Source: Halogeometricum sp. S3BR5-2
GTDB taxonomy: Archaea > Halobacteriota > Halobacteria > Halobacteriales > Haloferacaceae
Assembly (NCBI RefSeq): GCF_031624635.1
Contig: NZ_JAMQOQ010000003.1
Span: 310,001-374,000, forward strand
DNA: 64,000 bases
Direction: 5' to 3'
Shown here: one piece after another, positions 8,535 to 48,536 of the stretch
Layout: every line of letters starts with the position of its first letter
Numbering within the stretch: position 1 is the stretch's first letter
The notes under the pieces: generated by a model
Databases searched by the model: none
The model's input: the letters and a program-made list of their open reading frames with translations, nothing else
Told to the model about the DNA's origin: nothing
Position numbers and translations under genes: made by a program

Positions 8535-9267
8535 GACCGCGGAACTGCTCGAGTGGTTCGGCCTCTCGAGCTACGAGGCGAGCGTGTTCGTCGCGCTCCA
8601 GCGACTCGGTCGCGGCACCGCGAAGGAGATTGCCAGCCTCTCGGGCGTCCCGCGCTCGCAGATATACGGCGCCGCGGACTCCCTACAGGAGCAGGGGCTG
8701 GTCGAGGTCCAGCAGTCGAACCCGCGGATATACCGTCCCATCGCGGTCGACGAGGCCATCGACCAGTTGAAACAGCGGTACGAGCGCCGGACCGCGGACG
8801 CCGAACAGCAGCTAAAGCAGATCCGAAACGAGCGTCGGAGCCGCGAGCAAGAGCAGAAGGAGGACGTCTGGACCGTCAGCGGCGCAGCGGCGGTCAAATC
8901 GCGCATCGCCAAGATCGTCTCCGACACCGAGGAGCGACTCGTCGTCGGCATCGACGAAAACTCCCCGCTCTTCGAGCAGTTGGTGACGCAACTCGCGGAG
9001 AAGAGCGAGCAGGGCGTCGAAATCGTCGTCGTCACCGAGAGCGAGACAGCGGCCGAGCGGCTCGAACCGTTCGCGAGCGTGGTCAAACACCGCGAGGCGG
9101 CGGGTGCCGACGTTCCGAGACCGCAGCACGTCCTCATCGCGGACGACGAGACGATTCTGCTCGGCGTGCAGGCGAACGAGGAGGAGACCGCCATCTGGAG
9201 TTCGGGTACGAACTTCGCGAAGGTGCTCATCCAACTCGCTCGGAGCGGGATGGACCGAGACTCGTAG
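8518..9267 (+). CDS. TrmB family transcriptional regulator
   Basis: This 249-residue regulator has an N-terminal winged helix (about residues 5-75, with SSYEASVFVALQRLGRGTAK and GVPRSQIYGAADSL). A coiled-coil linker follows (about 85-120), then a C-terminal phospholipase D-like effector domain typical of the TrmB family. An in-frame GTG lies at 8509, but the ATG at 8518 has the Shine-Dalgarno-like GGAGGTGA just before it and is preferred. The start lies inside the end of the RND gene, so expression is coupled. TrmB proteins sense sugars or other ligands; here it probably regulates its own operon through the inverted repeat upstream of the first gene. Confidence 0.88.
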   Translation: MPTQSETAELLEWFGLSSYEASVFVALQRLGRGTAKEIASLSGVPRSQIYGAADSLQEQGLVEVQQSNPRIYRPIAVDEAIDQLKQRYERRTADAEQQLKQIRNERRSREQEQKEDVWTVSGAAAVKSRIAKIVSDTEERLVVGIDENSPLFEQLVTQLAEKSEQGVEIVVVTESETAAERLEPFASVVKHREAAGADVPRPQHVLIADDETILLGVQANEEETAIWSSGTNFAKVLIQLARSGMDRDS

Positions 9268-28729: not shown

Positions 28730-30055
28730 CTACGCGCCGGCGACTTCCTCTCGGATATACTTCCCGAGAACGCCGACCGTGGCGGCGGCGACGACGACGG
28801 CGAACGCGAGGACGGCCCCCGAGAGCGGACCGACGCCGCCGGCGACCTGTCCGCGGACGAAGTTCGCTGCCAGCGCACCCGAGAGGAGGAAGACGGCGAC
28901 GCCGCCTGCGTTTGCGAGCGTCGGGGTCGGTTCGGATACCGCTCGGGAGTTCAGGAGGTAGAGCACGAGGGCGAGGGCGAACGGCGTCCCGACGGTGCCG
29001 AGGGCGAGGACGAGGACGAGTTGGCCGAGCACCTCGCCGCCGATGAACGCCCCCGGTACTGACAGCAGCGCGAACCCGGCCAGGAGAGCGCGGTAGCGGC
29101 CGTCCTCGACCGTCGTCCCCCAGCCGAGTTTGTCCGCGAGGAGGAAGGGCGGGGCGACGGTGTTCCCGCCGAGCGTCGAGACGGCCGCGCCGCCGAGTCC
29201 GAGGAGGAACAGCCACTCCGCGCCCGGACCGACGAGCGGTCCCAGCGCCTCCGCGGCGCCGACCGTCGTGAGGTCCGGGTCCGACAGCACGCTCGCCGCG
29301 ACGAGGAAGATGGCGACGCTGTAGACGCCGAAGGCGACGAGCATCGAGGCGACCACGTCGAAGACGGCGAGGTCGGCGTCCGACCGCGTCCACCCGCGCG
29401 CCCGCATCGCGTACGAGTGCATCGTCACCAGCGTGACGTGCACCGCGCCGCCGAGGATGCCGGCGGCCAGCACCGCGCTCCCCGCCGGCAGCGTCGGGAC
29501 GAGGCCGCGCGCCGCGGCGCCCGGGTCGACGGGAACGACGAGCAGCGAGGAGACGAACGCGACGACGACGCCGGCCACGAGCAGTTTCGCCGCCAGTTCG
29601 AGGAAGCCGTAGCCCCGGCCCGCGAGTCCGGCCGCGAGCACCAGCGCCCACGCGACGCCGCAGACCCCCGCGCCCACGCCCGTCACCGTCGACGTGACGC
29701 TCGCGAGGGTGTTCAGAATCACCAACTGCGCGGCGCCGGCGGCGACCACCACGTCGGCGACCAGCAGCCACGCCCACCGCTCGCCGAGGTGCGCCTCCAC
29801 GACGGCGACGATTCCGCGCTCGGTCAGCAGACCCAGCCGCATCGCGAGGTACTGCGCGAGCGTCCCCGCGACGGCCGACAGCACGACGACCCACAGCAGC
29901 GAGTAGTCGAAACTCGCCCCGGCGGTGACGAGGCTCGCCATCGTCGCCGGCCCGGCCGCGACGGCGCCCGCGACCCACGCGGGTCCCATCCCGGACAGTC
30001 GCTCGCGCACCCCGGCCAGCCGAGTTCCCGAGACTGTCAACGCCGCGTCGCTCAT
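28730..30055 (-). CDS. Nramp-fold transporter lacking both metal-binding motifs
   Basis: This 441-residue protein has about 11 membrane helices and aligns with Nramp divalent-metal transporters along TM1 (MGPAWVAGAVAAGPAT ... AGASFDYSLLW). The metal-binding DPGN of TM1 is GPAT here (residues 35-38). The MPH of TM6 is HVT (206-208, in GGAVHVTLVTMHS). The residues that bind metal in the family are thus gone, so a non-metal substrate, or none, is likely. It is the last gene of the TenA-TenA-symporter operon, 43 bases behind the symporter. Transport of a thiamine-related organic compound is a hypothesis from context only. Confidence 0.8.
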   Translation of the reverse strand: MSDAALTVSGTRLAGVRERLSGMGPAWVAGAVAAGPATMASLVTAGASFDYSLLWVVVLSAVAGTLAQYLAMRLGLLTERGIVAVVEAHLGERWAWLLVADVVVAAGAAQLVILNTLASVTSTVTGVGAGVCGVAWALVLAAGLAGRGYGFLELAAKLLVAGVVVAFVSSLLVVPVDPGAAARGLVPTLPAGSAVLAAGILGGAVHVTLVTMHSYAMRARGWTRSDADLAVFDVVASMLVAFGVYSVAIFLVAASVLSDPDLTTVGAAEALGPLVGPGAEWLFLLGLGGAAVSTLGGNTVAPPFLLADKLGWGTTVEDGRYRALLAGFALLSVPGAFIGGEVLGQLVLVLALGTVGTPFALALVLYLLNSRAVSEPTPTLANAGGVAVFLLSGALAANFVRGQVAGGVGPLSGAVLAFAVVVAAATVGVLGKYIREEVAGA

Positions 30056-30098
30056 CGGTCGTCACCTCCGTCGAACGCTGTTCGACGTGCGACGGAAC

Positions 30099-31700
30099 TC
30101 ATCGGTCCTCCGCCCCCTCGAAGGTCGGGTCGGTCCGGTCGTTCGGCTCGTCCGGGCCGTTCGCCTCCGTCGAGTCGCGCGGCGTTCCGCCGTCGGCGAC
30201 GGGTCCGTCGAGGCGGCGAATCTCCCGCGAGAGGCGGTCGAGGTCGAACTCGCGGCTCGACAGGCGCGCCGCCGCGGCCGACGCGGTCGAAGAGACGAGG
30301 AACGCGCCGGCGAACGGCAGAAGGTAGGTCGGGTCGGGCGCCGGGAGGAGGCCGCCGAGGAGCGAGTCGACCGCGCCGTGCAGACCGAACGGGAAGGGGA
30401 AGAACGCGCTCCCGACGGCGAGGCCGAGGAGGGCGCTCGCCAGCGCCCCCCGTCCGGAGAGCCGACCGCTGAACAGCCCGTAGACGAGGGGGACGCCGAC
30501 GGCGGCGCCGAGGAGGTCCGCGACGAAGAACAGGCTGAGGACGCTCCGCGCGCGGAGGCTGACGGCGACGGCGGCGACGGCGACGACGACGGTGACCGCG
30601 CGCGCCCCGAGGCGGAGCGTCCGGTCGTCGGGGTCGTCGAGCACCCGTGGCAGGTCGGCGGTGACGAGGCTCGACAGGGCGTTGAACAGCGAGTCGGCCG
30701 TGCTCGTCACGAGCAGCAGGGCGAGCAGGAGGACGCCGACGACCAGCGGCTCGGAGAAGGCGCCGTCCAACAGGACGAAGAAGGCGACGCCGGCGTTGTA
30801 CTCCGCGCCCGCCGTGACCACGTCCGAGTTCCCGACGGCGACGACGCCGAGCAGCGTGGCCAAAAGGAGGACGAGACCATTGGCGACGGTGGCGACGCGG
30901 AAGCTCCGTTCGACCGTCTCGGAGCCGTCGGCGGCGTAGATGCGCTGCCACCACGTCTGGTTGAGGAGTTCCGCGCCGAGCACCGCGAACACGAGGGCGA
31001 CGCCGAACCGGAGGCCGGGGACGTAGCCGGGGTCGAGAAGCGCCGGGTTCGCCTCCGCGACGCCGTCGACGACGGGGCCGGGGCCGCCGAGCGCGAACAG
31101 CAGGGCCGCGACGCTCCCGACGAGGAGGGGGAGGACGACGAACAGTTGTACGGCGTCGGTGGCGATGCTCGCCCGGAGGCCGCCGTAGGCGGTGTAGAGG
31201 AGGACGAATCCGGCGACGAGCGTGGCCGTCTGCCACTGCGGGACCCCCGCGACGTAGTGGAACGCCAGCGAGATGCCCGTCAACTCGGCGGCGAGGAAGA
31301 CGAACATGTAGAGGGCGCTGACGGCGAGGACGAACGCGTACATCGCGCCGCCGTAGCGCGCGTAGGCGTACTCGGTCAGCGAGTGGCCCTCCGGAATCAG
31401 CTCCCGTATTTGGGGTCCCAATCGAGAGTACGCGAGCATCGGCGCGGCCTCGCCGAGTCCGTAGCCGACGGCGGCGGCGATGCCGTACAGCGCGCCCGCC
31501 TCGGGGGCCGACAGCAGTATCCACACGCCCATCACCGAGGCGACGAGCGTGGTGCTCAACCGCCCCTCGCCCGCGGTGCCGCGGGCGGTGATGAGGTCCT
31601 CGACGGAACCGACGCGCCCCCGCGAGAACCACAGCCCCAGCCCCGCGAAGACGGCGAGGGTGACGACGGTGAGACCGAGGGCGAGGGTCGAACTTACCAC
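30099..31700 (-). CDS. Sodium:solute symporter family transporter
   Basis: This 533-residue protein has about 13 membrane helices and the features of the SSS family: the early SRGRVGSVEDLITARGTAGEG loop, GYGLGEAAPMLAYSRLGPQI and the central helix YTAYGGLRASIATDAVQ, which matches the family signature. It uses a sodium gradient to import a small solute. The GTG start overlaps the end of the second tenA-like gene by seven bases, so translation is coupled. The context suggests uptake of a thiamine breakdown product or the HMP pyrimidine. Substrates in this family vary too much to decide from sequence. Confidence 0.87.
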   Translation of the reverse strand: MVSSTLALGLTVVTLAVFAGLGLWFSRGRVGSVEDLITARGTAGEGRLSTTLVASVMGVWILLSAPEAGALYGIAAAVGYGLGEAAPMLAYSRLGPQIRELIPEGHSLTEYAYARYGGAMYAFVLAVSALYMFVFLAAELTGISLAFHYVAGVPQWQTATLVAGFVLLYTAYGGLRASIATDAVQLFVVLPLLVGSVAALLFALGGPGPVVDGVAEANPALLDPGYVPGLRFGVALVFAVLGAELLNQTWWQRIYAADGSETVERSFRVATVANGLVLLLATLLGVVAVGNSDVVTAGAEYNAGVAFFVLLDGAFSEPLVVGVLLLALLLVTSTADSLFNALSSLVTADLPRVLDDPDDRTLRLGARAVTVVVAVAAVAVSLRARSVLSLFFVADLLGAAVGVPLVYGLFSGRLSGRGALASALLGLAVGSAFFPFPFGLHGAVDSLLGGLLPAPDPTYLLPFAGAFLVSSTASAAAARLSSREFDLDRLSREIRRLDGPVADGGTPRDSTEANGPDEPNDRTDPTFEGAEDR

Positions 31701-32455
31701 CGGCTCTCACCCTCCTCGGCGTCGCCCGCGTCGTAGGCCGACTCGAAGAACGCGACTTCCAGCGAGACGGTCCGCGTGAAGAGTCGTTCGAGGCGGCGCC
31801 GGCGCCGCGGCGAGGCGGCCGCGCCCTCCCGGTCGAGTTCCCCGCGGAGCCACCCCACGAACGCCCGAAAATCGTCGTTCGCGTGGAGGTGCACCCACTC
31901 GTCGAGGTAGAATCGGTCGGGCGACTGGGACCCCTCGGCGGCGGCCGCCGCCCACGCCTCGTACGTCCACTCCGCGGGCAGGAGCACGGCCAGTCGCTCG
32001 GCGTACCCGCCCTGCCGGGCGGCGCGTTCGATGAGGTCCTCGAACGCAAGCGTCGTCGGCGTTCGCGTCGGGTCCTCGTACGTCTCGCGCGGGACGCCCA
32101 GCGCCTCGAAGGAGCGCTCGAAGTAGTCGTCCTCCTCAGAAGTGAGCGTGCCGAGGAACGTCGACAGCCGACGCTTCGACGCCATCGTCGGCGCGTCGCC
32201 GACGGCGTGGCCGACGAGGCCGACGAGCGATTCCAGGAACGCGTAATCCTGCACCAGATACCGCCGGAACGCCGCGTCGTCCACCTCGCCGGCACCCAGT
32301 TCGCGGGTGAACCGGTGGGTCGTCGCCGCCGTCCACTCCGGCTCCGACCGTTCCCGGAGCCAGTCGGTGAAGCGGGCGTCTGTGACCGTCTCGGCGTACG
32401 CGTCGAACGAGTCGGGGACGGACTCGCTTCCGACCTCGGAGTCGCCGCCGTTCAT
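31694..32455 (-). CDS. TenA family protein without the catalytic cysteine (TenA_E type)
   Basis: This 253-residue protein has the all-helical TenA fold. It keeps the substrate-binding aspartate D70 (in YLVQDYAF) and the C-terminal glutamates in SLEVAFFESAY (E233, E238). At the place of the catalytic cysteine the sequence is LLPAEW (A161), so it belongs to the class lacking the cysteine, often called TenA_E. Plant members of that class hydrolyse oxidised or formylated aminopyrimidines derived from thiamine. It overlaps the preceding TenA gene by four bases (ATGA), so the two are translated together and may catalyse consecutive salvage steps. The start at 32455 is fixed by that overlap and by the loss of similarity upstream. 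Confidence 0.85.
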   Translation of the reverse strand: MNGGDSEVGSESVPDSFDAYAETVTDARFTDWLRERSEPEWTAATTHRFTRELGAGEVDDAAFRRYLVQDYAFLESLVGLVGHAVGDAPTMASKRRLSTFLGTLTSEEDDYFERSFEALGVPRETYEDPTRTPTTLAFEDLIERAARQGGYAERLAVLLPAEWTYEAWAAAAAEGSQSPDRFYLDEWVHLHANDDFRAFVGWLRGELDREGAAASPRRRRRLERLFTRTVSLEVAFFESAYDAGDAEEGESRW

Positions 32456-33117
32456 ATCGCCCACTCCTCCTGCCGCCACGCGGCGTCCCAGAAGCGGTAC
32501 TCGTAGCGCCCCGACTCGTAGAACAGGTCGCGGTAGCGCTCGCGTTCGGCGTCGCTCGCATCGCGGGCCACGCCGTCCATCAGCTCTTTGCACCACGTCG
32601 TGAGTTCGGTGAACTCCGCGCCCGCGTAGGTGTCTATCCACTCGGCGTACCGCTCGTCGTCGGGTTCGCCTTTCGCCCGCAGTCGCTCGGCCGTCTCGTT
32701 GAACCCCCACATGCAGGGGAGGAGAACGGCGACCAGGTCGCCGAACGACCCGGTCGCGGCGGTGCGTACGAGGAAGTCCGTGTACGCGCGCGTCGTCGGC
32801 GAGGCTTCGGTCGCCTCCAACTCCGCCTCGCTGATTCCGAACTCCGCGGCGTACGCGCGGTGGAGGTCCATCTCCGTGTTGATGGTCGAATCCAGGAGTC
32901 CCGCGAACGTGCCCATTCGCTCCAAGTCGGGCGCCGTCGCGGCGCCGTAGGCGAACACCCGCGCGTAGTCGACTAAGTAGACGTAGTCCTGCCGCACCCA
33001 GTACTCGAAGGGGTCCGTCGAGAGCGTGCCCGCGCCCAACCGCTCGACCATCGGGTGGTCCTCGATGGCGTCCCAGAGCGGTTCGGCCACCGTCGACAGT
33101 TCGTCGGTGAAGCTCAT
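32452..33117 (-). CDS. tenA: TenA (thiaminase II / aminopyrimidine aminohydrolase)
   Basis: This 221-residue enzyme hydrolyses aminopyrimidine to HMP, the thiamine pyrimidine, salvaging base-degraded thiamine. The residues known from Bacillus TenA line up almost one to one: D44, Y47, Y112, the nucleophile C135 (in LLPCMWGF), Y164 and E206 (in ESGRYEYRFW). The tyrosine after the cysteine is F139 here. The ATG at 33117 places these residues at the family positions, so upstream in-frame codons are excluded. It is the first gene of a four-gene operon and has an inverted repeat in its promoter region. Thiamine hydrolysis itself is a minor activity of the family. Confidence 0.92.
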   Translation of the reverse strand: MSFTDELSTVAEPLWDAIEDHPMVERLGAGTLSTDPFEYWVRQDYVYLVDYARVFAYGAATAPDLERMGTFAGLLDSTINTEMDLHRAYAAEFGISEAELEATEASPTTRAYTDFLVRTAATGSFGDLVAVLLPCMWGFNETAERLRAKGEPDDERYAEWIDTYAGAEFTELTTWCKELMDGVARDASDAERERYRDLFYESGRYEYRFWDAAWRQEEWAI

Positions 33118-33151
33118 GCTCGCCCGTACCGGCTCGGCGGTGAAATACGTT

Positions 33152-33174
33152 GGTAATACCACCGGATAATTACC
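33152..33174. promoter_or_regulatory. Candidate operator of the TenA operon
   Basis: GGTAAT and ATTACC are perfect arms of a 23-base element whose spacer is 11 bases. It lies 35-57 bases upstream of the tenA ATG, where the TATA box and start site of the minus-strand transcript should be. It is a good candidate site for a thiamine-responsive repressor. No thiamine riboswitch (THI element) is seen in the short leader. Confidence 0.5.
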
Positions 33175-48142: not shown

Positions 48143-48536
48143 ATGCTCTCGCATTACGAACATAGACTTGTAATGTACCGGCTCCGCCGCTCGAAGCATC
48201 GTCACAGTTGTACCGCTGTAAGGGTCGAACGGGGATTGAACGACCTTCCGTCCGCGTACGCCGTCCGGTGGACATGGTTCAACGTTGAGGTCCCGCTCAC
48301 AGTTCGGGATTTTGCAGAACTGAAATGGATATAATAGGTCTCTATCCAATTTTATAGAGACAGATATCGAGTAGTATAATCAAGAGCTACAAAATAGATA
48401 CAATCAGCCGAACTCCGAATATATTCGGGCCGTATTCGAACCCGAGTACCGCTATCTCCGCTCTCGGGCGAGGCCCGACCGCGCTGCGGCTCTCGATTCG
48501 GAGCGGTACGAAAAATCGCCGCGGCGTCGGGATTCG
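48143..48536. other. AT-rich intergenic region between convergent genes
   Basis: This 394-base gap lies between the IclR gene and the antiporter gene. The stretch 48300-48420 is AT-rich and holds a perfect hairpin, listed separately. A 63-codon plus-strand frame (48143-48334) is not called: it begins directly at the IclR stop and its composition is unlike haloarchaeal proteins. Confidence 0.5.
48338..48361. terminator. Hairpin in the convergent gap, possible bidirectional terminator
   Basis: GTCTCTAT and ATAGAGAC are perfect 8-bp arms around CCAATTTT, preceded by GGATATAATAG. It lies about 195 bases from the IclR stop and 175 from the antiporter stop, rather far for a simple terminator. A regulator or element-end function is possible. 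Confidence 0.35.

Follow-up and report, generated by a model that had tools for sequence, protein, structure and literature searches.

A tightly packed four-gene operon of Halogeometricum sp. S3BR5-2 probably forms a single import-and-salvage unit that is controlled by ThiR and supplies the pyrimidine of thiamin to a cell lacking ThiC; within it, an Nramp-related protein would carry an organic vitamer and would not be a canonical metal importer. The operon lies on the minus strand at 33117-28730 of the window, i.e., the whole 64-kb stretch of DNA that was analyzed, and open reading frames and family profiles identified its genes, in order, as TenA_C, TenA2, an SSS symporter and an Nramp-related transporter. 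The features are:

32452..33117, minus strand: TenA_C (thiaminase II / aminopyrimidine aminohydrolase), 221 aa; TIGR04306 184 bits (cut-off 130)
31694..32455, minus strand: TenA2, a 253-aa TenA paralogue that lacks the cysteine, SP_0716 type; PF03070, with SP_0716 closest and by tree
30099..31700, minus strand: SSS-family sodium:solute symporter (PF00474) with a putative ThiV-like role, 533 aa, GTG start
28730..30055, minus strand: 441-aa transporter related to Nramp (PF01566), from a haloarchaeal clade that lacks the canonical metal ligands
33144..33163, minus strand: putative ThiR operator and TATA-like box, with the palindrome GGTGGTATTACC at 33152-33163
30052..30102, minus strand: open frame of 16 codons with ATGA overlaps with the SSS stop and the Nramp start; coding is not claimed

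Read from the DNA, TenA_C and TenA2 share a 4-base ATGA overlap, TenA2 and the SSS gene overlap by 7 bases (31694-31700), and a gap of 43 bases separates the SSS and Nramp genes. The place, the families and these three junctions of the four minus-strand genes could all be read back as the original prediction gave them. Both TenA proteins matched PF03070 in Pfam (E-values of 4e-54 for TenA_C and 2e-24 for TenA2), and only TenA_C scored above the thiaminase II cut-off of NCBIfam (TIGR04306). The symporter (SSF profile E-value of 2e-22; PF00474, 79.9 bits) and the transporter (Nramp profile E-value of 2e-66; PF01566, 224.7 bits) both exceeded the cut-offs of their families. TenA_C is preceded by a P-type ATPase gene, and the 71-base gap between them holds the palindrome. 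An Rfam search of the window gave zero matches, and thus no TPP riboswitch upstream of the operon.

The host genome comprises 4.66 Mb and is 99.87% complete. At this completeness, ThiC, which synthesizes HMP, was not found, and no gene of the CytX family was detected in the genome; Thi4 is present, thiE, thiM and thiD are consecutive, and TenA_C and TenA2 are the sole TenA genes. The regulator ThiR is represented by an HTH-ThiN protein of 302 aa, encoded by the only ThiN gene of the host. By gene content, as opposed to growth, the host needs an outside pyrimidine, and it can synthesize thiamin phosphate once external HMP arrives. The operon is a plausible source of this HMP. Auxotrophy as the driver was considered and rejected: in a sample of 117 genomes of the order, TenA, TenA2, SSS and Nramp showed no significant association with the absence of ThiC, and neither TenA2 nor Nramp was enriched among the genomes lacking ThiC.

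The two TenA proteins differ at the active site. Using B. subtilis numbering, TenA_C has D44, Y47, Y112, C135, Y163 and E205, in agreement with the prediction that the first TenA retains C135 and its partner residues. TenA2 has D44, F47, F112, A135, E136, H163 and E205 at the corresponding positions; as predicted, the cysteine is missing while the aspartate and the C-terminal glutamate are kept. D44, E136 and E205 were invariant across 33 TenA2 homologues, and in TenA2's own numbering the family-invariant residues are D70, E162, W163, Y165, Y183, E186, W187, H191 and E233. Because this set of residues is invariant in the family, TenA2 looks like a functional enzyme. Its E162 is equivalent to Pyrococcus E129 and Arabidopsis E140, the conserved glutamate which, together with the absence of the cysteine, defines TenA_E (PMC5635689). 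With regard to descent, the profile of TenA2 scored 181 bits with S. pneumoniae SP_0716, 88 with B. subtilis TenA, 62 with P. furiosus and 50 with Arabidopsis, and in the tree TenA2 grouped with SP_0716 (support 100/99), apart from the P. furiosus, Arabidopsis and T. thermophilus sequences (100/97), the branches being long. The Arabidopsis TenA_E sequence that was used matches PDB 2f2g along its full length. The assignment of the second protein to the TenA_E class thus stands for the key glutamate and the lack of the cysteine, but does not extend to descent, which is shared with SP_0716 and not with the plant/Pyrococcus lineage. As a consequence of this placement, the activity of plant TenA_E is only an analogy for TenA2. 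TenA2 marks a third TenA lineage, the reaction of which is apparently unassayed, as no assay of any SP_0716-type protein was found in a literature search.

TenA2 was called at an identity of at least 47% in 34 of the 117 genomes, and all 34 also contain TenA_C, which is present without TenA2 in 40 genomes. This one-way dependence fits with TenA2 feeding TenA_C. The strict pairing and the separate lineage, with H at the Y163 site and A or V in place of the cysteine, would also suit an enzyme that acts on a different pyrimidine, such as an oxidized thiamin product or a toxic analogue, and not before TenA_C, or a non-catalytic subunit that partners TenA_C. Such roles are a real but lesser possibility, since the invariance of D44, E136 and E205 is what would be expected of an enzyme and E136 is the glutamate common to the assayed TenA_E proteins. 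Two lineages of TenA_C, of the LLPCMW and YPCGQ types and ∼42% identical, occur in haloarchaea, and each pairs with TenA2. In one genome (G116, locus L050) TenA2 has an in-frame TGA near 8986, which reflects either a pseudogene or a sequencing error; the copy in its sister G022 (L053) is intact.

The synteny that the original prediction had called for was indeed recovered. Of the 33 other carriers, 28 have TenA_C directly upstream of TenA2 on the same strand, and in four named genomes TenA2 is located beside Nramp while TenA_C is encoded elsewhere. The order TenA_C-TenA2-SSS-Nramp was observed in eight named genomes or MAGs, namely Halogeometricum pallidum, three Haladaptatus, Halobacterium sp. 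CBA1126, Halegenticoccus tardaugens and two MAGs, and two genomes of the order sample, G003 and G012, also have the complete order. The nearest named copy is that of H. pallidum, the Nramp gene of which is 89% identical. SSS adjoins a TenA gene in 24 of the 32 genomes that hold it, a context that suggests a ThiV-like role for the symporter, and adjoins an Nramp gene in three more. At one locus (L035, 8056-8304) the TenA pair is followed by no more than a piece of SSS, apparently left over from a symporter gene that was lost.

The genes also occur in permuted orders (C-TenA2-Nramp, Nramp-Ploop-C-TenA2-SSS, Nramp-Ploop-C-TenA2, C-Nramp, TenA2-Nramp, SSS-Nramp and Nramp-Ploop-C-SSS), and several genomes have a ThiR gene next to Nramp or TenA_C. 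A same-strand TenA gene was found within ∼4 kb of 25 of 80 Nramp loci, compared with ∼0.09 expected from random placement, a figure that is not a true probability as the genomes are related. Every carrier found is haloarchaeal, and the gene order could therefore reflect shared descent of a single neighborhood without any functional tie; this is highly improbable, given that the same genes occur in at least seven different orders and that the flanks differ between families. The diversity of gene orders speaks for a linkage that was selected for repeatedly. As the flanking genes differ between families, the unit moves as a module, and a longer conserved cluster was rejected because the neighbors, among them PyrB/PyrI, PGM, Sdh, helicase and GDPD genes, are unrelated. 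Two small, incomplete haloarchaeal genomes of ∼1 Mb (G001 and G032; loci L135 and L133) contain an SSS-Nramp unit, and neither TenA nor ThiC was found in them. This suggests that both transporters also handle vitamers that need no TenA.

A motif search in 44 regions upstream of TenA_C identified GGTnnTAnnACC, a palindrome with a TATA-like box behind it, ∼46 bases upstream of the start. When the window was scanned with a matrix from which its own site and the one in its nearest relative had been left out, the best match was at 33144-33163, the stretch that carries GGTGGTATTACC. The second-best separate match in the window was AGTAGTATAATCAAGAGCTA, at 48370-48389 on the plus strand. The same element is present upstream of stand-alone Nramp genes (31 starts compared with 443 control starts, P = 5e-9), and the top-scoring controls were the ThiR gene of L042 and those PhyH genes that run divergently from Nramp. 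No strong match was observed around thi4 and thiE of the host. Archaeal ThiR regulons, reportedly described by Rodionov 2017 and Hwang 2017, pair a regulator of the HTH-ThiN type with palindromic sites upstream of thiamin genes. The palindrome is a putative operator that ThiR may bind. Taken together, the synteny, the absence of ThiC from an otherwise retained pathway and the common promoter palindrome support the original proposal of a thiamin-pyrimidine salvage operon.

The more unusual part of the operon, which the original prediction missed, is the loss of the metal ligands in the Nramp-related clade together with its tie to thiamin genes. The predicted AF2 model of the transporter (pLDDT 84.8) has the LeuT-type Nramp fold and is closest to DraNramp (6d91; TM-score 0.83). 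Of the canonical Nramp ligands D56, N59 and M230 (PMC13060092), none is kept: in TM1, D56 and N59 correspond to G35 and T38, and in TM6, M230 corresponds to H206, so that the protein does not have the ligand set of a canonical Nramp/MntH transporter. The replacement is clade-wide, with G in 42 of 42 aligned sequences, T or S at the second site, and H in 43 of 43. The clade was seen in haloarchaea only, and its genes are neighbors of TenA, SSS or ThiR in many different arrangements. In nine genomes the Nramp-clade gene is present and TenA is missing altogether; seven of these genomes encode ThiC. Because of these nine genomes, the substrate need not be that of TenA and may be HMP, thiamin or thiazole.

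It was considered whether the protein is instead a metal importer under thiamin control that feeds the iron-dependent Thi4 or the Fe(II) dioxygenase PhyH, with SSS alone moving the pyrimidine. Its PF01566 membership and DraNramp-like model would agree with this, as would the palindrome borne by neighboring PhyH genes in many genomes and the Nramp-related YcsG/MntG of B. subtilis, which is reported to import Mn2+ (PMC10448178). Metal import is nevertheless unlikely, because the three ligands are replaced throughout the clade, and the D56A and D56G variants of DraNramp no longer import Mn (PMC13060092). Moreover, the related NRAMP-family protein PxpT is required for growth on an organic solute, 5-oxoproline (PMC13274462). 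The Nramp-related protein of the operon probably carries a thiamin vitamer. For the haloarchaeal clade as a whole, we lean slightly towards transporters of thiamin vitamers (thiamin, HMP or a breakdown pyrimidine) that are frequently coupled to a P-loop protein of their own. If true, the metal-transporter superfamily gains a vitamin-carrying branch.

The P-loop gene follows directly behind the Nramp-clade gene in 31 of 31 copies from 30 genomes, often overlapping it (e.g., L127:8756-9307), and is missing from the host genome. It encodes a protein of ∼180 aa with the motifs GPSNVGKT and FVNDATIPFQ, the predicted model of which is near CobA, thymidine kinase, CobU and Rho domains. A gene for a PhyH-type Fe(II) dioxygenase adjoins the Nramp-clade gene in many genomes (L097, L098, L111, L112, L118, L126, L129, L150, L151, L170, and others). 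Given the common palindromic promoter element, it is possible that this gene encodes an unrecognized thiamin-linked dioxygenase.

In the mechanism proposed here, ThiR would control the four-gene operon, and the SSS symporter and the Nramp-related protein would take up pyrimidines from thiamin breakdown or other vitamers. TenA2 would carry out a preparatory hydrolysis, most likely the deformylation of FAMP or of a similar modified pyrimidine, and TenA_C would hydrolyze the aminopyrimidine to HMP, which could then be converted to thiamin phosphate by the cellular ThiD, ThiE and Thi4/ThiM. The substrates of the operon proteins and the order of their reactions are those that we infer.

Parts of this arrangement are already known, namely tenA with SSS (ThiV) and the TenA_C/TenA_E pairs; a link between Nramp and thiamin was not found in the literature searched. 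No paper connecting an Nramp-family protein with thiamin was retrieved; the papers on archaeal ThiR regulons lay outside this search and may list part of it. Which transporters carry FAMP and AmMP is an open question (PMC10470507), as is what many orphan Nramp-related groups transport (PMC12873925). The operon, conserved and co-regulated, opens both questions to experiment through four genes in organisms that are amenable to genetics, and it suggests that an orphan branch of the largely metal-moving Nramp family carries vitamin fragments.

The closest known system is thiV-tenA of the Pelagibacterales, in which cells that lack ThiC likewise have an SSS gene next to a TenA gene and import of HMP or pyrimidine was proposed (PMC10881298, PMC11452348). 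There, however, a TPP riboswitch is present, whereas the haloarchaeal operon has a predicted operator of the protein type and no Rfam match, and it adds a second TenA paralogue and a second transporter, of the Nramp family. The TenA_C/TenA_E pairs of Rubrobacter and algae also combine one TenA with the cysteine and one cysteine-less TenA that has the Glu equivalent to Arabidopsis E140 (PMC10470507, PMC5635689), and haloarchaeal sequences of the TenA_E class were already noted in ocean data (PMC10470507); TenA2 differs from these pairs in that it falls with SP_0716 and outside the TenA_E lineage of plants and Pyrococcus. Finally, the orphan G-motif Nramp-related groups, EleNRMT, YcsG/MntG and PxpT are likewise PF01566 proteins without the DPGN/MPH metal motif (PMC12873925, PMC8806188, PMC10448178, PMC13274462), and the haloarchaeal clade is distinguished from them by its tie to thiamin genes.
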